A stretch of DNA of 64,000 nt from Gimesia algae (GTDB lineage Bacteria; Planctomycetota; Planctomycetia; Planctomycetales; Planctomycetaceae). A program made the position numbers and the translations under genes. Below, piece after piece: positions 997-56,135 of this stretch. Within the stretch, counting starts at the first letter, position 1. Every line of letters begins with the position of its first letter. The stretch covers positions 4,749,357 to 4,813,356 of the forward strand of contig NZ_CP036343.1 in the NCBI RefSeq assembly GCF_007746795.1, written 5' to 3'. Under the pieces are notes generated by a model. It was not told where the DNA came from. It did not search any database and was given only the letters and a program-made list of their open reading frames with translations.

Positions 997-1755
997 TTAA
1001 GAAACAACCCGTTCCCCATCCTTCAGAAAGGGAACCACCAGATGTTTGGGCTGTTGTGTTTCGGGATCGATAATCGGCTCGGGAGAATACTGAGTCACAT
1101 AGGCCCGCCGCATTTTGTCGGTGGTATTCGCACCACTGCGGTGAAACGTCAACGAGCTGAACACGGCCAGGCTGCCTGCGGGAACGACCGCTGTGACGCC
1201 CGGTTCTTTGCCGAAGTATCCGGTTTTGTCTCCCGTTTCGGGATCGCGAATGTGTTCCACCAGCGAACGAATGCCGACAGTAGAATACGGCAGGACGTCG
1301 ACCGTCCCGTTTTCCAGTGTCATATCATCGACTGCCGCCCAGACCGTTACATAAGGACGATGCAGGAAACCAAGATAACCGGAGTCCTGATGCCAGGAAA
1401 ACTTGATCCCTTTTTCTGCTGCTTTGACCACATACTGATCGTAAAACAGGTACGAGGTATCACCGATTGTGGCTTTACAGATCTCTGCCATCAGATCACT
1501 GAATACGTATTCATCCAGCCGCGGCGCCTGGTCATACTTCTTCGCGATATGATAGCGTTTGCCCCGATGGCTGATATGAATATGATCGGTACCCAGGCGA
1601 TCCATTTCCTGATGCATCAGATCAATCAGATGATCGCAGGCATCGCGAACAATCTGCAGATGTTCTTCACAAATCGCCCGTTCCAGAATGAAGTAGCCTT
1701 CTTCCTGAAACTGTTTTTTATGTTCTTCGGTAATGATCCCGGTCGAGACAGTCAT
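997..1755 (-). CDS. Phytanoyl-CoA dioxygenase (PhyH) family protein
   Basis: A 252-residue Fe(II)/2-oxoglutarate-dependent dioxygenase of the PhyH family, which hydroxylates small organic substrates in the cytoplasm. The metal triad is visible: HxD in WHQDSGY (His122, Asp124) and the distal His in LTFHRSG (His205), followed by Arg in MRRAY (about 216-217), suited to binding 2-oxoglutarate. I chose the ATG at 1755 because AGGAGA lies a few bases before it; an in-frame ATG at 1773 would add six residues and has no such site. It sits between the oxidoreductase and the sugar isomerase in a compact minus-strand run. Substrate unknown; planctomycetes carry many paralogues of this family. Confidence 0.88.
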
Positions 1756-1816
1756 CGTTTCTCCTGAAAACAAAAGAAATGGTTAAGCAATCACGATCAA
1801 TAAAATTCAAAGAACT

Positions 1817-3145
1817 TTAGGTATCTTTGATCTCATAACCGGCACGCTGTTCGCGTTTGAGCCATGTATTCGCTTCGGCATCACCGACGAACTGTTCCTG
1901 CTGTGGGTCCCAGGTCAGTTTACGGCCCAGACGCTGTGAGATATTACCAATATGACAGACGGTTACTGAGCGATGCTGATTCTGTACGCTGGAAATCGGA
2001 GTCGCCCGCGTCTCAATGCAGTCGAAGAAGTTCCCCATGTGATTCACAATCGCATCCAGTTTGCCCATGCGAGGCGGACGCGAAAGATTATCGTGGGCAT
2101 AGACATTGAACGATTCTCGTGGTAAAGGATTCTTAGCCAGGTCTTCCACTGGTTTCCCGGCAATCGTGCCTCGGTTCACAAAGATGCGTCCCTCGTCTCC
2201 TTCGAACATGACACCGGTCCGTCCGGAATCATTCACTTCCAGAACGACGCCATTGGCATAGCGGGCTTTCAGATGGTAATCGAGGGCCACATTGTATCCG
2301 TTCTCGACATTCGGGAACGTCGCCGTCCCTTCGATATCAACGGGACCGGTTTCCTGCATGCCGGCCCCCCACTGGGCGATATCAATATGATGCGCGCCCC
2401 AGTCGGTCATCTGCCCCCCCGAATATTCATACCACCAGCGGAACGTATAATGGCAGCGTTCCTTGATATAGGGTACTTCGGGTGTCTGTCCCTGCCACAG
2501 ATCCCAGTTCAAGACGGAAGGAACTGATTCTGGTTTAAAGGGCCCACCGGTTTTGTTTTTACTGAGAGTGACTGTCACTTTCTGCAGGTTACCAATCCGG
2601 CCATCCTTGATCATTTCGACCGCCTGACGAAAACGGTGATCGCTTCTCTGCCAGGTACCGACTTGAACGACGGCTTTGGTCTCATCAACAACTTTGTTAA
2701 TGATTTTCCCTTCATCGACGGTCAACGATAATGGTTTCTCACAATAGACGTCCTTGCCGGCTTGACAGGCATCAATCAGCATTTTGGTATGCCAGTGATC
2801 GGGGGCACCAATCGTCACGACATCGATGTCCGCCTTATCCAACATCTCCCGATAATCTTCGAACAGAGTCGCTTTGCCGCCAAACTGCTTGCGGGCCTTC
2901 TCTGCAATTTCGCGGTCCACGTCTGCAATCGCGACGATGTCGCCATACTGCTGGGCTTTGTCCGCAATGACCGAACCCTGGTACCGCATCCCGATCGAAC
3001 CGATTTTCAGCCGTTCATTCGGATTGCGGGCCTTTTCTGCAGCACGCGCCGTATTCACAAAAACTCCCGGTGCCAGACAGGCCATGGGCAGCCCGGCTGC
3101 TGCTGTTTTAACAAACGTTCGACGAGATAGTTTTTGTGAAGTCAT
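1817..3145 (-). CDS. Gfo/Idh/MocA family oxidoreductase with Tat signal
   Basis: A 442-residue NAD(P)-dependent oxidoreductase of the glucose-fructose oxidoreductase / inositol dehydrogenase family. The N-terminus has a twin-arginine motif (SRRTFVKTA) and a hydrophobic stretch, so the protein is probably exported folded with its cofactor. A Rossmann segment follows (KIGSIGMRYQG, then IADVD), with the family's EKPLSLT motif near residue 140 and a C-terminal alpha/beta substrate domain containing GGQMTDWGAHHIDIAQWG, a strand typical of the planctomycete secreted subfamily. The start at 3145 is preceded by AGAGGAGA; an upstream in-frame ATG at 3178 is less likely. It lies 42 bases after the DJ-1-like gene. 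The sugar substrate cannot be read from the sequence. Confidence 0.92.
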   Translation of the reverse strand: MTSQKLSRRTFVKTAAAGLPMACLAPGVFVNTARAAEKARNPNERLKIGSIGMRYQGSVIADKAQQYGDIVAIADVDREIAEKARKQFGGKATLFEDYREMLDKADIDVVTIGAPDHWHTKMLIDACQAGKDVYCEKPLSLTVDEGKIINKVVDETKAVVQVGTWQRSDHRFRQAVEMIKDGRIGNLQKVTVTLSKNKTGGPFKPESVPSVLNWDLWQGQTPEVPYIKERCHYTFRWWYEYSGGQMTDWGAHHIDIAQWGAGMQETGPVDIEGTATFPNVENGYNVALDYHLKARYANGVVLEVNDSGRTGVMFEGDEGRIFVNRGTIAGKPVEDLAKNPLPRESFNVYAHDNLSRPPRMGKLDAIVNHMGNFFDCIETRATPISSVQNQHRSVTVCHIGNISQRLGRKLTWDPQQEQFVGDAEANTWLKREQRAGYEIKDT

Positions 3146-3187
3146 CGCAGTCTCCTCTGATTGATCGAGTGATTTCAAAACAGTTTT

Positions 3188-3751
3188 TCAGTACTGATTT
3201 CGTGCCTCATCCAGCATTTTCATCCAGGGGCCGATGTATTGACCATGATCGTGATACGTACGCCCACTGACCATATTCCCGTCAATCACACAGGGTTCAT
3301 TCACGAAAATGCCGCCGCAGACTTCCAGATCGAACTGGCATTTGGGAACGGTCGCCATACGACGCCCTTTCACACAACCGGCGCGTGCTGGGATTTCTAC
3401 GCCATGACACACGGAAGCAATGGGTTTATTCTTCTCAAAGAAATGTTGAGTGATCCGAATCAGGTCTTCGTCATCGCGAATGTACTCGGGAGCACGGCCG
3501 CCGCTGAAAAAGATTCCCAGGTACTCTTCTTCTTTGATATCTTTAAAGGCAATATCTGCCTGGATCGTATAGCCTTCCCACTCTTTAGTAATCGTCCATC
3601 CCGGTTTTACTTCGTGAAGGACCATCTGATACAGACGTTTCTCAGGTGCAGCAACAACGGGCTCATACCCCCCTTCAATCAGTCGATAGTAGGGATAAAG
3701 TGTGTCAACAGTCTCGGTTGCATCACCAACGATGATTAAAACTTTGTTCAT
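3188..3751 (-). CDS. DJ-1/PfpI family protein
   Basis: A 187-residue protein of the DJ-1/PfpI (class I glutamine amidotransferase-like) superfamily. Residues 83-90 contain GGRAPEY and residues 113-117 contain SVCHG, giving the nucleophile-elbow Cys115 followed by His116, the usual arrangement in PfpI-type proteins. Members include glyoxalase III, deglycase-like and protease-like enzymes; which one this is cannot be decided. It has no signal peptide, unlike two of its three downstream neighbours. It is the first gene of the four-gene minus-strand run, and a palindrome lies 23-39 bases upstream of its start codon. Confidence 0.9.
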   Translation of the reverse strand: MNKVLIIVGDATETVDTLYPYYRLIEGGYEPVVAAPEKRLYQMVLHEVKPGWTITKEWEGYTIQADIAFKDIKEEEYLGIFFSGGRAPEYIRDDEDLIRITQHFFEKNKPIASVCHGVEIPARAGCVKGRRMATVPKCQFDLEVCGGIFVNEPCVIDGNMVSGRTYHDHGQYIGPWMKMLDEARNQY

Positions 3752-3790: not shown

Positions 3791-3932
3791 GGATTCCATT
3801 CTACAGGAGAATCCAGGCCGGTCATTACGGAATCTCATAAACATTATCAGGTTTTGCGTAGATTATAAGACTTGTAATCGCAAAATGCCTCTGTTTTCAG
3901 GCATTTTCTGAAGAGCAGCTGTATGCCTGTGA

Positions 3933-5090
3933 TCAATGCATTTTTGCCCGGAACTCGCCCGGAGTCTCGCCTGCTTTTTCTTTGAACAGCGTACTGAAGT
4001 GCTGCGTATGGCGAAAACCGATGCGTTGGGTGATCTGAGCGAGTGACAAATCGGTCGAGGCCAGCAGTTCCTTGGCCCGCTCCATCTGCGTGCGGATGAT
4101 CTCCGCTTTGGGAGACCGGCCAATCGCGGATTTCATCTGGCGTTCCAGCGCGGTCCGCGACATGGGAACCGCTTTCAGAATATCAGTAACCTGAATTCCC
4201 TTACAGGCATTTTCGCGAATAAACCGTAATGCCAACGCCAGTTCGGGATCATCCACGGCAACCACATCGGAGGACTGTCGCGTGACGATTCCCAGCGGCT
4301 TGAGTAGATACGGCTCGTCAGGCACGGCCCCTCCTTTCATCATGCGGCTCAAGAGCGCTGCAGCTTCATAGCCGATACGCGTTGAATTAAAAGCCACACT
4401 CGACAAAGGCGGCCGCGCCATCATACACAGGATCTCATCGTTCTCGACTCCGACGACTGCAACTTCATCGGGTACGGAAATTCCCGCACGATCACAGGCA
4501 TCCAGCAGCCAGAACCCCAGCTGGTCGGTACAGGCCATGATGCCTACAGGCTTGGGGAGTTCACGGACCCACTTTACCATCTGTTCCTGATGTTTTTCCC
4601 ACTCGCGCGGCACTTCGGAGTCGTCGGGAGAAGAAAACACGCTGACTTCATAGCCTGCGTTTTTGATGGTTTGAATGTAGTTATCGCGGCGTTCTTCGAA
4701 GTAAACTTCACTACCGATCTCATAAACGCCAAAGTGACGAATCCCGCGTTCCAGAAAATGTTCCGCCACCATGCGACCCATCGCCCGGTTATCAATCCCC
4801 AGAAAGGGAAAGGCATGTTCTAGCTTGGTGGATCGTAATTCGACAGCAGGAATCCCCGAATTCGTAATGGCATCCGCCATTTCCTGACTGGTCGTACGAC
4901 TGAGAATTCCGTCACCTTTCCAGCGGGATATCCAGCCCGGGACCTGGGAATCCAGCGAACGAGGCATCACGAATACCGACCATTCTTCTTTTTCTGTAAT
5001 AAACTGACGAATGCCATTCAACAGACCCCGGCCGTGTGAGCGGGACGTTTCAATCAGTAAAGCCACGTGAGGTAGGGAAGTCTTGGCCAT
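3933..5090 (-). CDS. XylR-type AraC family transcriptional regulator
   Basis: A 385-residue regulator with the layout of E. coli XylR: an N-terminal periplasmic-binding-protein-like ligand domain (about residues 8-275, with VALLIETSRSHGRGLLNG at its start and VGVENDE near 225) and a C-terminal AraC/XylS helix-turn-helix pair (about 285-385, with LKAVPMSRTALERQ and ITQRIGFRHTQHFSTLFK). Such proteins bind a sugar and activate nearby catabolic genes. It sits immediately upstream of the minus-strand cluster of four metabolic genes and in the same orientation, 181 bases away, so it is the likely local regulator. The ligand is probably a sugar (inference), not necessarily xylose. Confidence 0.9.
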   Translation of the reverse strand: MAKTSLPHVALLIETSRSHGRGLLNGIRQFITEKEEWSVFVMPRSLDSQVPGWISRWKGDGILSRTTSQEMADAITNSGIPAVELRSTKLEHAFPFLGIDNRAMGRMVAEHFLERGIRHFGVYEIGSEVYFEERRDNYIQTIKNAGYEVSVFSSPDDSEVPREWEKHQEQMVKWVRELPKPVGIMACTDQLGFWLLDACDRAGISVPDEVAVVGVENDEILCMMARPPLSSVAFNSTRIGYEAAALLSRMMKGGAVPDEPYLLKPLGIVTRQSSDVVAVDDPELALALRFIRENACKGIQVTDILKAVPMSRTALERQMKSAIGRSPKAEIIRTQMERAKELLASTDLSLAQITQRIGFRHTQHFSTLFKEKAGETPGEFRAKMH

Positions 5091-5288
5091 CGGTGTCGAT
5101 TCAATCGAGATCTATTCTGCATCAGGAATGCAGGCGGGTGGGTCATTTCAATTCGATGATAGTAATCTTTTACAGCAAGTCCGATTTCTGTTCAATCATG
5201 ATCGAAACAGATAGGCGGACTTCGTACAATACTCTCCACAAACTTTATTTACACTATGGCAGATAAGAATTGACTGTGAAAGGCTTTC

Positions 5289-5750
5289 GTGGACTATCAG
5301 ATCAAACAGGCTCAGGCCAACGATTTTCTGGAAATTGCTGCGTTGGATCGTAACGCCTGGCCGATCGAACCGGACACATTTATCCCCGATGGCGAACATG
5401 CCTGGAGACTCTGGTGTGAATATGCAACCGTTTTAATCGCAGTTTCTTCACCTGAATCACAAGTACAGACACTCGCAGGTGCGCTGTTGATGTTTCCGAC
5501 GAATACAGATGAAATCTTTCTGCATAAAATCATGGTCCATGCAGATTTCCGGGGACAGGGAATCGGCTCCGCTTTGATGAAACAGGCTTTGCAACGGGCA
5601 GATGAGGTTGTATTACTCACCGTGAACCCTGAAAATACACCTGCTGTGAAGCTGTATGAGAGCTTTGGTTTTCAAGTCAGGAAGAAAATCGAAGGCTATT
5701 ATCGCCCCCATGAGCATCGGCTGTTAATGGAATTCCAACCTGCCACGTAA
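5289..5750 (+). CDS. GNAT family N-acetyltransferase
   Basis: A 153-residue acetyltransferase of the GNAT superfamily, transferring an acetyl group from acetyl-CoA to an amine. The coenzyme A-binding motif A is clear: VHADFRGQGIGSALMKQAL (about residues 92-110) with the R/Q-x-x-G-x-G/A core. This is followed by LTVNPENTPAVKLYESFGF, the usual C-terminal strand-helix unit. The start is GTG at 5289, with only a weak GAAAGG upstream. It is divergent from the XylR-type gene and 19 bases before the glycerol-3-phosphate dehydrogenase gene, so the two plus-strand genes are probably co-transcribed. The acceptor is unknown. Confidence 0.9.
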   Translation: MDYQIKQAQANDFLEIAALDRNAWPIEPDTFIPDGEHAWRLWCEYATVLIAVSSPESQVQTLAGALLMFPTNTDEIFLHKIMVHADFRGQGIGSALMKQALQRADEVVLLTVNPENTPAVKLYESFGFQVRKKIEGYYRPHEHRLLMEFQPAT

Positions 5751-5769
5751 TACGAAATATGGACTATTT

Positions 5770-7467
5770 ATGAATCAGACTGAGCGGGTACTCATACTGG
5801 GAGCAGGCATCAACGGCGTCGCGGTTGCCCGTGAGTTACTGTCGAACGGAATTTCCGTCTGCATGATTGATCAGGGAGATCTCTCACAGGGAGCAACATC
5901 CAAATCATCCCGACTGGTTCACGGCGGTTTGCGCTACCTGGAATATGGTGATTTTTCGCTGGTGAAAGAATCCGTTCACGAACGCGGGATTCTGCTGGAT
6001 CTGGCCCCGCATTTCGTGAAACCCCTGAGGTTCGCCATCCCGCTGGCACATCGCGCGACAGGCGTCATGTCGTCTGGTCTCCGTTTTCTCAGTGGTTTCC
6101 GCGTGCCCGGAGCACACTGGCTCAACAACCAGTTCTCCTTTTCGTCTGAGCGGGGCATGTATCTGGTTGACATGGGGCTCACCATGTATGACTGGTTTGC
6201 CTCGAAAGGCAATCTTCCCCGCCATTCGGTACACGATGTGGGTGAACCAGGATTACCCGCTATCAACAAAGAGAAATTCCGCTGGATCGCCTGCTATTCC
6301 GATGCACAAATGCGATATCCCGAGCGCTTCGTTGTCGCGTTATTACATGACTGTCGGAAAATTGCGCAGCAGAAAGGCCTCGAATTTGAACTCCTCACTT
6401 ATCATCAGCTGTCGCTGAAAAACAGAAACGTACAACTGACATCCCTGCGGCATCCCAGTTTAAATCACGAACTGTTTGTCCCTAAAGTCATCATCAATGC
6501 ATCAGGAGCCTGCGGTGATCTGACGCTCCAGCAGGTTGACGTTGCCTCTCCGCGACTGATGGGGGGCACCAAAGGCAGTCACATCATTACCTTCAATCAG
6601 ACTCTCCGGGATGTGTTAGGAGAGCAGGCCATTTACTCCGAAGCCAGCGATGGACGACTCGTCTTCATTCTACCTTTTGGAGACTGCACACTGATTGGAA
6701 CGACCGATGTCCGCGTCGAAGGCAATCCGCTCGACGTCGCCGCCAGCCCTGAAGAGTTAGACTATCTGGTCGGCATGGTCAACATGGTCTTCCCTCAGGT
6801 CGGACTTACCTCCGCAGATATCAACCTGCATTACAGCGGCGTTCGTCCCCTGCCTTATCAACCGGAGGGCAAAGCCGCTTCCATTTCGCGAGACCACTCG
6901 ATCAAAGAATACGAAGGTCCCTCCGGCTGGATCGTCACACTCGTGGGTGGAAAGCTGACTTCGTGGCGCGCCTTTGCCGAGAACGTGACCGATCGTATCC
7001 TGAAGAAGCTGGGGAAAAGCTATCACTCAGAATCGAAAACCCGTCTGATCCCCGGCGCAGAGCATTATCCGCAAACCCCTGATATCCTCAAAGCCGAACA
7101 AGGTCGTCTCGCCGAGAAGTTTCAACTCTCGCTGGCAAGTATTCAGACACTCTGGATTCTACAGGGAACTTTAATCGAGGACATTCTCGACTCGCTGCCC
7201 GACTGTTCCTCAGAATTGCTCCCCGGAACCAATATTCCGCGCCAGTACGTGCTCTGGACCATCAACAACGAATGGGTCGAGACCATCGGCGATCTCGTCG
7301 AACGTCGCCTGATGCTGATCTTCGATGAAACATTAGATGCAGCCACTCTGCAGGCGCTCGCAGAATGTCTGGTCGAAACAGGCAGACTGGATGCTGCCCA
7401 GATCCCTGCGACACTCGAAAGTTACCAGACCCACCTCACAAAGTTTTACGGCAAAAAAGTCCACTAA
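5770..7467 (+). CDS. glpD: Aerobic glycerol-3-phosphate dehydrogenase
   Basis: A 565-residue FAD enzyme that oxidises sn-glycerol 3-phosphate to dihydroxyacetone phosphate and passes electrons to the quinone pool at the inner membrane. The N-terminal dinucleotide-binding motif GAGINGVAVARE (about residues 11-22) is followed by SSRLVHGGLRYLEYG, a signature of the GlpD/GlpA family. TDVRVEGNP and YSGVRPL are also typical, and a C-terminal all-alpha cap follows from about residue 390. The length fits GlpD; there is no Cys-rich C-terminus as in anaerobic GlpA. No glpK or glpF lies in the window. Confidence 0.93.
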   Translation: MNQTERVLILGAGINGVAVARELLSNGISVCMIDQGDLSQGATSKSSRLVHGGLRYLEYGDFSLVKESVHERGILLDLAPHFVKPLRFAIPLAHRATGVMSSGLRFLSGFRVPGAHWLNNQFSFSSERGMYLVDMGLTMYDWFASKGNLPRHSVHDVGEPGLPAINKEKFRWIACYSDAQMRYPERFVVALLHDCRKIAQQKGLEFELLTYHQLSLKNRNVQLTSLRHPSLNHELFVPKVIINASGACGDLTLQQVDVASPRLMGGTKGSHIITFNQTLRDVLGEQAIYSEASDGRLVFILPFGDCTLIGTTDVRVEGNPLDVAASPEELDYLVGMVNMVFPQVGLTSADINLHYSGVRPLPYQPEGKAASISRDHSIKEYEGPSGWIVTLVGGKLTSWRAFAENVTDRILKKLGKSYHSESKTRLIPGAEHYPQTPDILKAEQGRLAEKFQLSLASIQTLWILQGTLIEDILDSLPDCSSELLPGTNIPRQYVLWTINNEWVETIGDLVERRLMLIFDETLDAATLQALAECLVETGRLDAAQIPATLESYQTHLTKFYGKKVH

Positions 7468-50730: not shown

Positions 50731-52635
50731 ATGTCCACCACGCTTCACAAATTTTCGCATACGATCCACCAGTTGCGGAACCATCTGCAGTCTCTGGCAG
50801 CACAAACCAGTCAGCTGGAAATTCCCAGCCTCAGTGGCCGGGAATGGTTTGATATTCTGGAACGTAAACTGATTCCCCAGCTGACAAATGAGATGTATCT
50901 GGTCGTCGCAGTCGTGGGGGGAACCAATATTGGCAAGAGCGTCATCTTCAATCATCTCGTTGATCAGCAGACCAGCGCCATCAGCCCCCTCGCCTCTCAG
51001 ACACGCCATCCGGTTTGCCTGGTGCCACAGCACTTTGAACAGCAGCACGACTTACGCAAAGTTTTCCAGGGATTCGAGCTGATTCTCTGGTCATCGGCGG
51101 AAGACCCACTCCAACAGGACGAGCGGCATCTGCTCTTCTGGAAAAACTGTGATACCCTGGCTTCGAATCTCCTCGTGCTGGACACTCCCGATATCGACAG
51201 CGATGCCGAAGTCAACTGGGAACGCGCAGAACGGATCAGGCAATGCGCAGATGTGCTGGTCACCGTCTTAACACAACAGAAATACAACGACGCCGCGGTG
51301 AAAAAATTTTTCCGGGAAGCAGCCCGGGAAGACAAAGTCATTATCACCGTCTTCAATCAATGCCAGTTACCCGACGATGAAGCATACTGGCCTTTGTGGT
51401 TAAACACATTCTGTCAGGAGACCGGAGCACATCCGGAACTGGTGTTTATCGCCCCGAACGATCGGCGTGCGGCAACCAACCTGGAACTCCCTTTCTACCC
51501 GCGTCAATTTGAACCGGCTTCGGCAGATTCACATCCCGAGGTCAATGACAGTCCGCCTCAAACAGATTCCGCTGTGAATCTAATGGAAGTTCTGTCACAG
51601 ATGCAGTTCGGCGAGATCAAAGTTCAGACGCTACGGGGCGCATTGAAGTATCTCATCCAGCAGGAGACAGGTGTGCCCTCTTATCTACGGGAAATCAAAT
51701 CGCGCAGTCAGGAATTCCGTTCGGCGGCGGAGTTACTTTCAGAGCATGAACTGGCCGAGATCGAAAACTGGCCGCTGGTTCCCAATGCCGTGCTCGTCGC
51801 CGCCGTTCGTAAATGGTGGCAGGAACAACGGGAAGGCTGGTCAGCCCATGTGCACGGCTTCTACAACTCACTTGGCAAAGGAGTCCTCTGGCCGGTCCGT
51901 TACCTGCATTCGCTCACCACAGAAGAAAAACGACCACCGATGGAAGTTTACCGCGACCAGGAATGGACGGTAGTCCTGCAGACAGTCGAGGGGATCTACG
52001 ATCGGCTGACACTCGTCAGTGAACTGGGTAACGAACTGCTGACCAATCGCCTGAAAACCCTGTTAAATGGAACATCACGTGAAGCCCTTCTGAAGACGTT
52101 GCATGAGGAGCACTCCCGCTTCGATTTCACGACTCAGTTTGAAGACCTGGTCAACAAAGAGATGACCAGTTTCAGATCGGAAAGTCCGCAGTATTATGCG
52201 TTGATTAAGCAGATCGACCGGGCCGCTGCCGTAGGACGCCCGGTCCTCAGCGTCGGATTATTCTTTGTCGGCTTTGGCGCCGTCGGTGATGTGGGAACAC
52301 AAATCGTCACCGATACCATGATTCAGTCGGTCGTCAATGTAGCCGGTGATGTGGCCGGAGGTGCCGCCGCCACGACCGTCGGAGAGACAGCCGTCAGCAG
52401 TTCCGCTGCATCGGGCATGGGATACCTCGAAGCAAAAATCAGACGATTTCACGCCGTCTTTGCACAGAGACGAACCGAGTGGCTCGCGAATGCCGTTCGA
52501 ACTCATTTATTGAAAACACTTCCGGAAGAACTGAAGTCGGCTGTCGCACTGCCAGACTCCGAACATTACCATGCGGTTCAACAGACCGTCAACGAGCTGG
52601 AACAACAGCTGAATCAACTGCAGATTACGCTCTAA
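50731..52635 (+). CDS. Large P-loop GTPase with glycine-rich membrane-associating segment (dynamin/YfjP-like)
   Basis: A 634-residue GTPase. The P-loop reads GGTNIGKS (63-70), switch/G3 is LVLDTPD (about 148-154), and G4 lacks the standard NKxD, reading FNQCQ (about 208-212). After the G domain (about 55-245) come long helical regions (RSQEFRSAAELLSEHEL) and a Gly/Ala/Val-rich segment (about 510-570: VGLFFVGFGAVGDVG, GDVAGGAAATTVGETA) that could insert in or lie on a membrane. The C-terminus is a coiled coil (VNELEQQLNQL). It is the first of two adjacent GTPase genes, 44 bases apart; they probably act together, like paired bacterial dynamin-like proteins (inference). Confidence 0.8.
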   Translation: MSTTLHKFSHTIHQLRNHLQSLAAQTSQLEIPSLSGREWFDILERKLIPQLTNEMYLVVAVVGGTNIGKSVIFNHLVDQQTSAISPLASQTRHPVCLVPQHFEQQHDLRKVFQGFELILWSSAEDPLQQDERHLLFWKNCDTLASNLLVLDTPDIDSDAEVNWERAERIRQCADVLVTVLTQQKYNDAAVKKFFREAAREDKVIITVFNQCQLPDDEAYWPLWLNTFCQETGAHPELVFIAPNDRRAATNLELPFYPRQFEPASADSHPEVNDSPPQTDSAVNLMEVLSQMQFGEIKVQTLRGALKYLIQQETGVPSYLREIKSRSQEFRSAAELLSEHELAEIENWPLVPNAVLVAAVRKWWQEQREGWSAHVHGFYNSLGKGVLWPVRYLHSLTTEEKRPPMEVYRDQEWTVVLQTVEGIYDRLTLVSELGNELLTNRLKTLLNGTSREALLKTLHEEHSRFDFTTQFEDLVNKEMTSFRSESPQYYALIKQIDRAAAVGRPVLSVGLFFVGFGAVGDVGTQIVTDTMIQSVVNVAGDVAGGAAATTVGETAVSSSAASGMGYLEAKIRRFHAVFAQRRTEWLANAVRTHLLKTLPEELKSAVALPDSEHYHAVQQTVNELEQQLNQLQITL

Positions 52636-52679
52636 ACCCCTCCATAATATGGGGAACAGTGTCAAACCTTACCCGAGAC

Positions 52680-54542
52680 ATGAGACCAGAAACAAAGACA
52701 GAAACCATGCCTACATCCGAATTAGCACAAATTGAACTGCTGGCAGCTGTGGACAACCTGATTCATCAGCTCAAACACTGGGGTGAGCAGCAAACACACT
52801 GGAAGACTGCACAACAATGTCAGGCGGTAATCCAGCAGCTCCTGCCACGGCTGGGCATGCTCCGCGTACGCCTGGAATCTCCTCTGGTCATCGCCACCTT
52901 TGGCGGCACCGGAACAGGAAAAAGCAGCCTCGTCAATGCTCTGATTGGATCGTACTGCACCACATCTGGAAGACAGAGACCGACAACGACCAAGCCGGTC
53001 CTGATTGCACATCCGGAGACCGACCTCGATCGACTGGGGCTGGACCTGAGTCAGTTTCATGTTGAACAGAAAAAACTGGATCAGTTGCAGAACATCATTC
53101 TGATCGACTGCCCGGACCCGGACACGTCTGAATCCAACTTCGAAGAAAATAACCTGACCCGCCTGCAGCACATCATCCCACTGTGTGACATCTTGCTCTA
53201 CACCTCGACCCAGCAGAAATACCGCTCCGCGCGGGTCTCCGAGGAACTGATTGAGGCAGCCATCGGCCGACGACTGATCTTTGTACAGACACATGCCGGC
53301 CTGGATGAAGACATTCGCGAAGACTGGAAACAGCAACTTTCACAACAGTTTGAAGTACCGGAAATCTACTTTGTCGATTCGGTCAAGGCGCTGGAAGATC
53401 AGCTGGCAGACCGCACTCCCGACCCGGAATTCGCTGCTTTACAGAATATTTTGAGTGCCCAGCTCGGCAAGTCAGAACGCCTCCAGGTCCGCCGCGCCAA
53501 CCTGCTCGAGTTAATGCAAAATGCCATCGACCACTGCGCAGGCAAAATCGAAAACGGATTGCCTGCAGTCCATGAACTCGAAGCATTTTTGAAACAGCAA
53601 CAGGTTGTACTCACCGGACAAATGTCACAAGAACTACGGTCGGAATTACTCGTCAGTCGCAATCTCTGGGAACGCAGACTCCTTTCCTGTGTTTCCGATT
53701 CCTGGGGCTCGAGTCCGTTTTCCATGATGCTCCGCCTGTATAACGGATTAGGAAATCTGGTCGCCTCAGCCAGTCTGTTTCGTGCCAGAAATTCAGCACA
53801 GGTCGCATTGATCGGTGCCTTGCAGGGCGCCCGCTGGCTGGGAAATCGCCATCAGGAACAGGCGGCGGATGACCGCATTAAACGCATTGGTTCATTTGGC
53901 CTGGATGATAATAAACTGCGCGAATCACAACTATTGATTGACGGCTATACACAGGCGGCAGGTCTCACCCCTCCGCCAGGACACCAGATCGGGTCACTGG
54001 AATATCTGCAAACCGAAGCAGCGCATGTCGAGGAACAGTTCCTGAATGATGCAGGCACAAAAATCGACAGCATCATTACCCGTCTCGCGCATAAAAACTC
54101 CGGCTGGTTTACACGCTGTGTGTATGAAACCCTGTTTCTGGCATTGGTCGTTTATGCACTGGTCCGTATTGGAAAAAACTTTTTCTACGACTCGTTCCTG
54201 GACGAATCAAATATCCTGGCGATTGATTTTTACGTCACTGCAGGAGTCATTTTTCTGATCTGGACCGGGTTCCTGGTGATGATGTTTACCCGCAAACTGA
54301 AGCGAGGACTGGAACAGGAGATCAATCAGCTGGCAGACCATCTGGCCAAGACCAGACTTTCACACGGACTGTTTCCACATCTGGAACGCGAGTGTCGCCA
54401 GGTCTACTCTCAACAGCATGCACTGGAACGCATGCGGGGAGAGGTACATCAACTCCGCTCAGAAATCGCAGGCTCCAGGATCTTGGGGTCCTGGAAAGTA
54501 AATGAGCCGACAAAGCACGTCGGCTCTCAAGCAAGGCAATAA
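52680..54542 (+). CDS. Second large P-loop GTPase with two C-terminal membrane helices
   Basis: About 620 residues, starting at ATG 52680 (or ATG 52707, both lacking a strong ribosome site); the frame extends upstream over the previous gene but that part is unlikely to be used. The P-loop is GGTGTGKSS (75-83), G3 is LIDCPDPDT (about 145-153), and the G4 position reads VQTHAG in place of NKxD. A helical middle follows. Two membrane helices lie near residues 478-498 (CVYETLFLALVVYALVRIG) and 520-540 (YVTAGVIFLIWTGFLVMMF), forming a hairpin with a short loop, then a coiled-coil tail (about 545-600). Membrane remodelling or envelope-stress roles are possible; unproven. Confidence 0.8.
   Translation: MRPETKTETMPTSELAQIELLAAVDNLIHQLKHWGEQQTHWKTAQQCQAVIQQLLPRLGMLRVRLESPLVIATFGGTGTGKSSLVNALIGSYCTTSGRQRPTTTKPVLIAHPETDLDRLGLDLSQFHVEQKKLDQLQNIILIDCPDPDTSESNFEENNLTRLQHIIPLCDILLYTSTQQKYRSARVSEELIEAAIGRRLIFVQTHAGLDEDIREDWKQQLSQQFEVPEIYFVDSVKALEDQLADRTPDPEFAALQNILSAQLGKSERLQVRRANLLELMQNAIDHCAGKIENGLPAVHELEAFLKQQQVVLTGQMSQELRSELLVSRNLWERRLLSCVSDSWGSSPFSMMLRLYNGLGNLVASASLFRARNSAQVALIGALQGARWLGNRHQEQAADDRIKRIGSFGLDDNKLRESQLLIDGYTQAAGLTPPPGHQIGSLEYLQTEAAHVEEQFLNDAGTKIDSIITRLAHKNSGWFTRCVYETLFLALVVYALVRIGKNFFYDSFLDESNILAIDFYVTAGVIFLIWTGFLVMMFTRKLKRGLEQEINQLADHLAKTRLSHGLFPHLERECRQVYSQQHALERMRGEVHQLRSEIAGSRILGSWKVNEPTKHVGSQARQ
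54504..54526 (+). terminator. Stem-loop within the last codons of the second GTPase gene
   Basis: A perfect 8-base stem (GAGCCGAC / GTCGGCTC) with a 7-base loop, ending 14 bases before the stop codon TAA. It lies inside the coding sequence and may act in transcription termination or mRNA stability. No T-run follows. Confidence 0.4.
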
Positions 54543-55367: not shown

Positions 55368-56135
55368 ATGACCTGGTTAAAAATGATACTGCTGTCCATC
55401 ATTCAGGGTATCAGCGAATTCCTGCCGATCAGCTCTTCCGGGCACCTGGTAATCGTGGAGAGCCTGCTGAAGATCCAGGCAGATCAGACCGATGTGAATA
55501 TCGTGTTGCATGCGGGAACACTGCTCTCGATCCTGATCTTTTATCACAAAACGATCTTTCGGCTATTAAGCCGGGACATGCGTGTCATTCCACTGATGAT
55601 TGTGGGCACACTGCCAGTTGTCGTGATTGGACTGGCGGCCAAAAAATATGCAGAGCACTATCTGGAAAGCCCTCTGCTGGCAGGCTGCATGTTGCCTGTG
55701 ACCGGCCTGCTCCTGCTGCTGATTCCTCGCATTCCACATCACGACCAGAGCTACACAAAAATCACTTACAAGCAGGCAATTCTGATTGGACTGGCGCAGG
55801 CAATTGCCATTCTGCCGGGAATCTCCCGCAGTGGAAGTACCATCGTTGCAGGACTGCTCACGGGGATGTCGCGGCAGTCGGCAGCCACCTTCTCTTTTCT
55901 ACTTGCCATCCCGGCGATTTCCGGCGCCACCATACTGGAGACGGCGGAAATCATTTCGAGCCAGCACCTCAGCACGCCCCTGAGTCTGTTACTCATCGGC
56001 GCCCTGATCGCGGCAGTCGTAGGACTTGTGTCACTCTGGCTGCTCGTGCGCTGGCTGGAAAAAGGCAAGCTGCACTACTTCGCCTACTGGTGCATTCCAC
56101 TGGGAATTGTAATCGTCATCATGCAGTTGATCTGA
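55368..56135 (+). CDS. uppP: Undecaprenyl-diphosphatase (BacA type)
   Basis: A 255-residue membrane enzyme that dephosphorylates undecaprenyl pyrophosphate to recycle the lipid carrier used for peptidoglycan and other polymers. The two signature blocks are present: QGISEFLPISSSGHL (about 14-28) and LPGISRSGSTIVAG (about 146-159). About eight membrane helices follow the known BacA topology. It supports active peptidoglycan synthesis along with murA and the SEDS gene. It converges on glgX with a 12-base gap. Confidence 0.95.
   Translation: MTWLKMILLSIIQGISEFLPISSSGHLVIVESLLKIQADQTDVNIVLHAGTLLSILIFYHKTIFRLLSRDMRVIPLMIVGTLPVVVIGLAAKKYAEHYLESPLLAGCMLPVTGLLLLLIPRIPHHDQSYTKITYKQAILIGLAQAIAILPGISRSGSTIVAGLLTGMSRQSAATFSFLLAIPAISGATILETAEIISSQHLSTPLSLLLIGALIAAVVGLVSLWLLVRWLEKGKLHYFAYWCIPLGIVIVIMQLI

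Follow-up and report, generated by a model that had tools for sequence, protein, structure and literature searches.

Adjacent genes for two dynamin-like GTPases with altered G4 motifs in Gimesia algae and other Planctomycetota

Gimesia algae carries, within the 64,000-nucleotide stretch analyzed here as a whole (the window; contig NZ_CP036343.1, positions 4,749,357 to 4,813,356, assembly GCF_007746795.1), two neighboring plus-strand genes, A and B, that encode large P-loop GTPases and together probably specify a heterotypic, membrane-anchored remodeler of the bacterial dynamin-like type, with B as the anchored partner and A as a peripheral, eroded one. Gene pairs of this kind have already been described, and the suggestion from an earlier reading of the sequence alone (the sequence-only reading) that the arrangement was a new one is not supported; in the available part of one source, most bacterial dynamin-like genes are stated to be paired in operons (PMC6104087). 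What is new is that the A-then-B order recurs in Planctomycetota and actinobacteria, that the G4 motif has been lost in A and in the B proteins of the family to which the window belongs, and that searches of 148 genomes of the class failed to find FtsZ in 147.

Open reading frame (ORF) A occupies 50731-52635 and encodes 634 amino acids, laid out as N-terminal helices, a G domain, a long helical region, a hydrophobic Gly/Ala-rich stretch and C-terminal helices. ORF B ends at 54542 and encodes 620 amino acids from ATG 52680 or 611 from ATG 52707. The second of these is more likely to be the true start, because the 52680 site has no start codon in L066-L068, three of the four named loci closest to the window, where the first start aligns with 52707; the fourth (L065) has both start codons. 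The sequence-only reading had placed two GTPase ORFs exactly here, with 44 bases between them, a distance that applies to ATG 52680 but becomes 71 bases with the likelier start.

Translation and alignment identify in both proteins a canonical G1 motif (GxxxxGK[ST]), GGTNIGKS in A (residues 63-70, 50917-50940) and GGTGTGKS in B (residues 75-82, 52902-52925). The G3 motif has DxPD in place of DxPG and reads DTPDIDS in A (residues 151-157, 51181-51201) and DCPDPDT in B (residues 143-149, 53106-53126); beyond it lies a TQQKY signature common to the two, within TQQKYND in A (residues 181-187, 51271-51291) and at residues 177-181 in B (53208-53222). At the site where NKxD is expected, A has an eroded NQCQ (in FNQCQ, residues 209-212, 51355-51366), and B has THAGLD (in QTHAGLD, residues 204-209, 53289-53306), which aligns with the NKxD of its relatives. 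These motifs, and the absence of NKxD from both proteins, agree with what had been noted beforehand, but the description of the two GTPases as dissimilar was too strong. Their G domains are 27% identical over 205 amino acids (BLASTP E 3e-10), a profile-profile alignment extends through 370 columns, beginning in the N-terminal helices and reaching the helical region (E 7.3e-37), and they have DxPDxD in common, with TQQKY in addition in the window's family. A and B are thus homologous to each other and old paralogs.

Conservation of the motifs was followed in an alignment of the window's family and of named loci, the latter being the best 80 of 312 relatives of A from a scan of genome contigs. 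Its 97 A rows and 59 B rows reduce to 91 and 56 distinct rows once repeats (six in A, three in B) are removed, and G4 was counted in the distinct rows. DxPDxD is invariant (97/97 in A, 59/59 in B, and 13 of 13 A rows from outside), as is T[QD]QKY in A (97/97), of which KY is kept in 11 of the 13 outside rows. The G4 motif of A reads NQxx in 89 of 91 rows, and an Asp at its fourth place survives in four (NQCD in two, SKLD and NRVD in one each); outside the family, one of 13 A proteins has NKxD (NKSD) and the others have eroded forms. NKxD is present in none of the 56 B rows, where the fourth place is D in 38, E in six, G in eight and another residue in four, while an Asp two places further on, the last of THAGLD, is present in all 56. 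Outside the family, B proteins retain N[KR]xD in 13 of 13 cases, including L058 (FNKVD, shifted by the alignment), and the absence of NKxD from the window's B is therefore a derived loss. The alignments thus indicate that the guanine-reading Asp has been lost widely in A and, in B, only in the window's family.

AlphaFold2 models, for which 51 of 80 relatives from the named loci were used with A and 34 of 42 with B, reached a mean pLDDT of 79.1 and a pTM of 0.70 for A and of 75.5 and 0.64 for B. At the level of secondary structure, both place helices ahead of the G domain and long helices behind it, as would suit a dynamin-type neck and trunk. Foldseek comparisons with the PDB list chains of the dynamin superfamily in the top 34 places for A and the top 38 for B, headed for A by Drp1 (8t1h, E 9.7e-8), MFN2, IniA, Fzo1 and BDLP, and for B by BDLP (2j68, E 4.7e-10), the Cj-DLP pair (5owv_C, E 6.7e-9), Drp1 and IniA; Era, GIMAP, Toc34 and immunity-related GTPases come after these, Era only from rank 35 for A. 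Sequence searches of the PDB with the B profile point the same way, returning Irgb10 (E 6.6e-10), Der, BDLP (E 1.4e-5, profile positions 183-329), mitofusin 1 (E 4.4e-4, positions 215-300) and, weakly, the Cj-DLP chain 5owv_C (E 0.0069), with the BDLP and mitofusin 1 matches extending beyond the G domain. Assignment of A and B to the dynamin superfamily is well supported by the predicted folds, in keeping with the earlier proposal of a two-component, membrane-linked, dynamin-like pair.

Hydropathy likewise bears out the hydrophobic features proposed from the sequence. B has two hydrophobic segments, at residues 480-498 and 519-537 (mean Kyte-Doolittle values of 1.77 and 2.07 over 19 residues), which form a predicted two-helix membrane hairpin (residues 480-537, 54117-54290) matched by helices at 476-507 and 515-559 in the AlphaFold2 model. 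A has a single segment at residues 500-518 (mean 1.69) in its Gly/Ala-rich stretch (residues 500-560, 52228-52410), a candidate membrane-binding tip. Across the family, the last 40% of the chain holds two such segments in 44 of 59 B rows and one in the other 15, as against one in 58, none in 35 and two in four of 97 A rows.

The distribution of the pair was assessed in 294 genomes of the phylum and in a sample of 148 from the class, 37 of them from the window's family. Profile searches at E 1e-3 matched 266 (A) and 239 (B) phylum genomes, but because other GTPases are included these totals were set aside; single-sequence searches at the same threshold gave matches to A in 61 genomes and to B in 96, the latter taking in classical BDLP-like genes. 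Among the matches listed, 56 phylum genomes have an A-profile ORF of at least 70 bits that, read by eye, is not their B, 17 belonging to the window's family and 39 to others. In these 39, again among the matches listed, B lies directly behind A in 28, the contig ends in seven, and B is unlinked or missing in four; in three of the 28 (G128, G235, G290) the leading ORF gets its better score from the B profile and is of A type by place only. In the class sample, at E 1e-15, both genes were found in 91 of 148 genomes, A only in two, B only in six and neither in 49; two of the six with B only, G408 and G332, on reading carry an A-like ORF directly upstream that falls under the threshold. The genes are adjacent on one strand in the order A then B in 60 of the 91, allowing up to 2,200 bases between profile matches. 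Within the window's family, 36 of 37 genomes have both genes, adjacent in 24 and kept jointly in the 12 where they are apart as well, and one, a draft, has A only. Among the named loci, B is directly downstream of A in 42 of 80, missing from 30 in spite of 2.5 kb or more of space, and not decidable in eight, and an in-frame B start overlaps the A stop by 4 bases in 13 of the 42 linked loci. Most relatives thus keep the genes together (60/91 class genomes, 42/72 decidable named loci, 28/39 non-family genomes among the matches listed), and neither outcome that the sequence-only reading had named as refuting its two-component system, separation in most relatives or a predicted ribosome-assembly fold, was observed. 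ORFs A and B are also conserved beyond chance, with identities to the nearest relatives of 76-91% for A and 80-94% for B, and of 33-52% to other family members. At E 1e-15, the pair was not found in the nine genomes of family f2 that were listed or in part of family f93. Two separate A-then-B pairs (L160, L163) were observed in genome G084.

Several results weigh against a dynamin-like reading of the pair. With Pfam, Dynamin_N scores 21.6 bits in A and 24.1 in B, both under the cut-off of 27 (27.1 bits for B in a genome-wide search that includes neighboring matches), and both proteins pass the MMR_HSR1 cut-off of 21.9 (36.9 and 26.1 bits). Among PDB sequences, the matches of the A profile are confined to Der, Era and further small GTPases. 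The listed Foldseek rows have TM-scores of 0.15-0.51 over alignments of 350-850 columns, values expected if hinges differ, or if little besides the G domain is common. G3 is DxPD rather than the dynamin DxPG in every aligned row, and the canonical dynamin G4, [NT]KxD, is replaced by NQxx in A and by [TS]HxD/G in B of the window's family; the pair is therefore best labeled dynamin-like by fold and layout, and not a canonical member. Most of residues 502-560 of A are modeled at a pLDDT below 50, so that no reliable structure is available for the part of the chain where B has its helix pair, and only eight of 13 non-family B rows have two hydrophobic segments. Finally, the genes are not adjacent in 12 of the 36 family genomes that have both; in five a distance of over 300 kb separates them on a single contig and in the others they lie on different contigs, contig ends having been checked in part (in G358, A sits at a contig end).

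Among described systems, Cj-DLP1/Cj-DLP2 of Campylobacter jejuni (PDB 5owv, 5oxf) likewise consists of two adjoining dynamin-like genes and is a structural match of both A and B, although identity is 11-14% over the structural alignments and the planctomycete pair differs in its DxPDxD, TQQKY and altered G4. As far as the accessible part of the source extends, the Cj-DLP operon putatively includes an HcpA-like gene (PMC6104087). Nostoc BDLP1 belongs to the same superfamily, and BDLP 2j68 heads the structural matches of B; the five BDLP-like genes read in other planctomycete families are unpaired and differ from A and B in having DTPG and [NST]KxD. Structures of mycobacterial IniA, which pairs with IniC as genes, come third among the structural matches of A and sixth among those of B, but IniA is absent from the sequence matches of either. 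Mitofusin/Fzo1, in which an [NT]KxD-like G4 is kept, is eukaryotic and has no A/B gene pair; its target-normalized TM-score with B is up to 0.51. These are dynamin-like proteins with membrane-anchoring tip helices, as stated in the part available (PMC6104087). Titles and abstract openings on planctomycete or Gimesia dynamin and YfjP GTPases, for the most part without the article bodies, contain no description of the A/B pair.

If A and B do constitute such a remodeler, B would be held in the membrane by its hairpin, while A would be mainly soluble and touch the membrane through the hydrophobic stretch in the same region of its chain. Nucleotide binding would join the two G domains in a heterodimer, and hydrolysis would swing the helical necks and trunks, such that membrane is tethered, constricted or sealed. 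A may serve as the eroded, regulatory partner. In B, the change has run from NKxD to T/S-H-A-D in the window's family, and to T-H-A-G in its genus; given that both G4 motifs are changed, the pair probably reads nucleotide in another way, or relies on pairing itself. Loss of G4 in A, and in B of this family, thereby offers a natural test of whether guanine recognition is needed in both partners of a dynamin motor. A connection to the internal membranes of planctomycetes, as had been suggested, found no evidence in the analyses described here.

As to what such a pair would do in the cell, a tentative but possible answer is membrane repair or the response to envelope stress, in which it would be recruited to damage and would tether and reseal membrane, a role that has been proposed both for DynA of B. 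subtilis and for the Cj-DLP pair. The patchy presence in the class, with neither gene in 49 of 148 genomes, would suit a maintenance role; both genes being present in 36 of 37 family genomes suggests more than an accessory function. Neighboring genes were compared in 100 loci and the window, with ORFs picked by length, and no stress gene was seen recurring beside the pair, nor any conserved third component, the largest other cluster being found in 14 loci. A shared neighbor may be missed in GC-rich loci because picking by length yields spurious ORFs there.

Less likely, the pair is the planctomycete form of Streptomyces DynA/DynB, acting at the bud neck or division site to constrict or sever membrane without FtsZ. 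The likeness is one of layout and lies in two adjacent genes of which the B type has two membrane segments. In the accessible parts of the sources, DynB is membrane-associated via two transmembrane segments with DynA as its partner, both stabilizing FtsZ rings (PMC8748795), the genes form a dynAB operon (vnz_12110 for DynA, vnz_12105 for DynB; PMC6428758), and sco2685 is equated with sven2472 in one table (PMC3765725). A contig filed as 'Bacteriophage sp.' (L180, MT837334.1, 75% GC) carries A, B and then a single-stranded DNA-binding protein (SSB) gene (Pfam E 1.1e-20), and is probably bacterial, since its other genes are also ordinary-looking bacterial ones. With SVEN_2472 as dynA and SCO2683 as ssbB, this A-B-SSB contig would be dynAB-ssbB-like, which we treat as a lead and not a test.

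Actinobacterial A-then-B pairs do exist. A tblastn search of a plasmid collection gave matches only in Nonomuraea gerenzanensis, whose 11.85 Mb record is filed under plasmids, with two loci (L165, L166) in which an A-like ORF precedes a B-like one. The first ORFs match the A profile at 4.6e-43 and 1.6e-36 and the B profile at 2.2e-32 and 4.3e-33 (L165 being 1.6e-36 versus 4.3e-33), and the second ORFs match the B profile at 5.7e-39 and 1.7e-36 and the A profile at 8.9e-18 and 6.3e-16; these margins make the B type clear and leave the A type less certain. On reading, NKxD is missing from the first ORF, and the second has NQxD and two C-terminal hydrophobic helices. Two of the four actinobacterial A-like proteins nevertheless barely favor the A profile, L165 and L180 (3e-37 versus 1.5e-36), and in a tree of G domains the actinobacterial A proteins provisionally branch beside the B clade (82/94), while actinobacterial B falls inside planctomycete B (96/93 together) and all planctomycete A lie outside. 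The tree holds 46 rows, after seven without D.P[DG].D were dropped and with 40 of 182 planctomycete A and B rows used, and its deep forks have support of 82-98. Two histories would fit, a duplication older than the two phyla or a joint transfer of the two genes. Dynamin_N scores 45.5, 26.9, 31.6, 27.4, 35.6 and 37.9 bits in six actinobacterial-type relatives. By reading, one of the N. gerenzanensis pairs lies behind cobT/cysG-like genes and the other behind response-regulator-like genes, and L178, an IMG/VR contig of 65% GC, has the A-then-B order at its end.

DynA/DynB works with FtsZ, which was not found in the window's genome, and B of the window's family has lost NKxD. No match to PF00091 (tubulin/FtsZ) was obtained in that complete, single-contig genome of 7.93 Mb, where 13 of 14 controls were matched, nor in 147 of the 148 class genomes. 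The sole match (G321:C1:584108-584320) lies in a 1157-amino-acid ORF and scores 23.3 bits (36.4 including neighbors), above the cut-off. Budding of P. limnophila proceeds by a mechanism called unknown in the available part of PMC6952346, as is planctomycete budding without FtsZ more generally in those parts accessible (PMC6952346, PMC5147048, PMC4164004); the word 'dynamin' is absent from the main texts of PMC6952346 and PMC5147048. The failure to find FtsZ in nearly the whole class sample favors a role in division, but in the nine f2 genomes without the pair FtsZ was not detected either, and therefore A/B is no universal FtsZ substitute; part of f93 likewise has neither, and no division gene was seen recurring beside the pair in the loci compared. 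More doubtful still is the fuller version in which a DynA/DynB-type pair outlived FtsZ in Planctomycetaceae-like bacteria, its heterodimer carries out bud-neck scission, and G4 drifted in both partners as nucleotide came to be read via the heterodimer interface. Whatever their role, A and B, being present together in 36 of 37 family genomes, constitute a concrete gene pair to delete and tag in the study of FtsZ-less budding.

A Leo-like anti-phage or abortive-infection system of paired GTPases is very improbable. PADLOC matches to LeoA, LeoBC and mad8 are weak (E-values of 1.6e-5 to 0.51; A to LeoA 2.9e-5, B to mad8 1.6e-5 and LeoA 6.3e-5), most covering the N-terminal helices and P-loop, with mad8 covering the G domain. 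Although two IMG/VR contigs hold relatives of the actinobacterial (Nonomuraea) B, one in A-then-B order, a search of viral contigs with the planctomycete B profile found no relative, and near-universal presence in the family, together with a constant position next to rpsB-like genes in the four loci closest to the window, is unlike a defense island. An identity of A and B as ordinary Era- or Der-like GTPases, whether for ribosome assembly or of the small type, is rejected on curated cut-offs, length and predicted fold, since, although A alone finds Der and Era P-loops first in the PDB and MMR_HSR1 is above its cut-off, no NCBIfam model comes close to its cut-off for either protein (HydF 33.4 against 325.55, Era 29.9 against 237) and the G domain is followed by a mostly helical chain of some 350-400 amino acids, with a hydrophobic hairpin in B.

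The closest named relatives of A are from Gimesia and then from other Planctomycetaceae-type records, and the family includes strain Thalassoglobus neptunius KOR42. Upstream of the pair and on the opposite strand are, by reading, rpsB-, tsf- and pyrH-like genes, seen again only in the window's four nearest loci; downstream are a thioredoxin-like ORF, uppP and a glgX-like gene. An uppP-like gene (by reading) lies near the pair in the window (55368-56135), in L065 (14645-15409) and in L067, L103 and L120, the last two only 46% identical in A. Besides A and B, the only Dynamin_N matches in the window's own genome fall in a single 487-amino-acid ORF, which has two P-loops and reads as Der.

Other GTPase genes came to light in the course of the searches. 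Five B-only matches (f25, f28, f44, f75) were rejected as single BDLP-like genes with DTPG and [NST]KxD; in L145 (G217, f44, 3890-6143) and L147 (G182, f75, 1072-3370) such a gene is directly followed by what reads as an ispF-like gene. Judged by positions, two GTPase ORFs of another kind stand side by side in seven of the nine f2 genomes, and three of these pairs were read (L167-L169, from G121, G331 and G328); together with L170 and L171 of f93 (genomes G311 and G294), likewise from genomes in which A/B was not found, they have DTPG and an NK/NQ-type G4. Both L167 ORFs contain DUF697 (92.5 and 132.8 bits), two N-terminal hydrophobic stretches are read in the leading ORF of each pair, and the two GTPases of L170 and of L171 are separated by what reads as an amidase-like gene. 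G331 has a further Dynamin_N match in a 798-amino-acid ORF.

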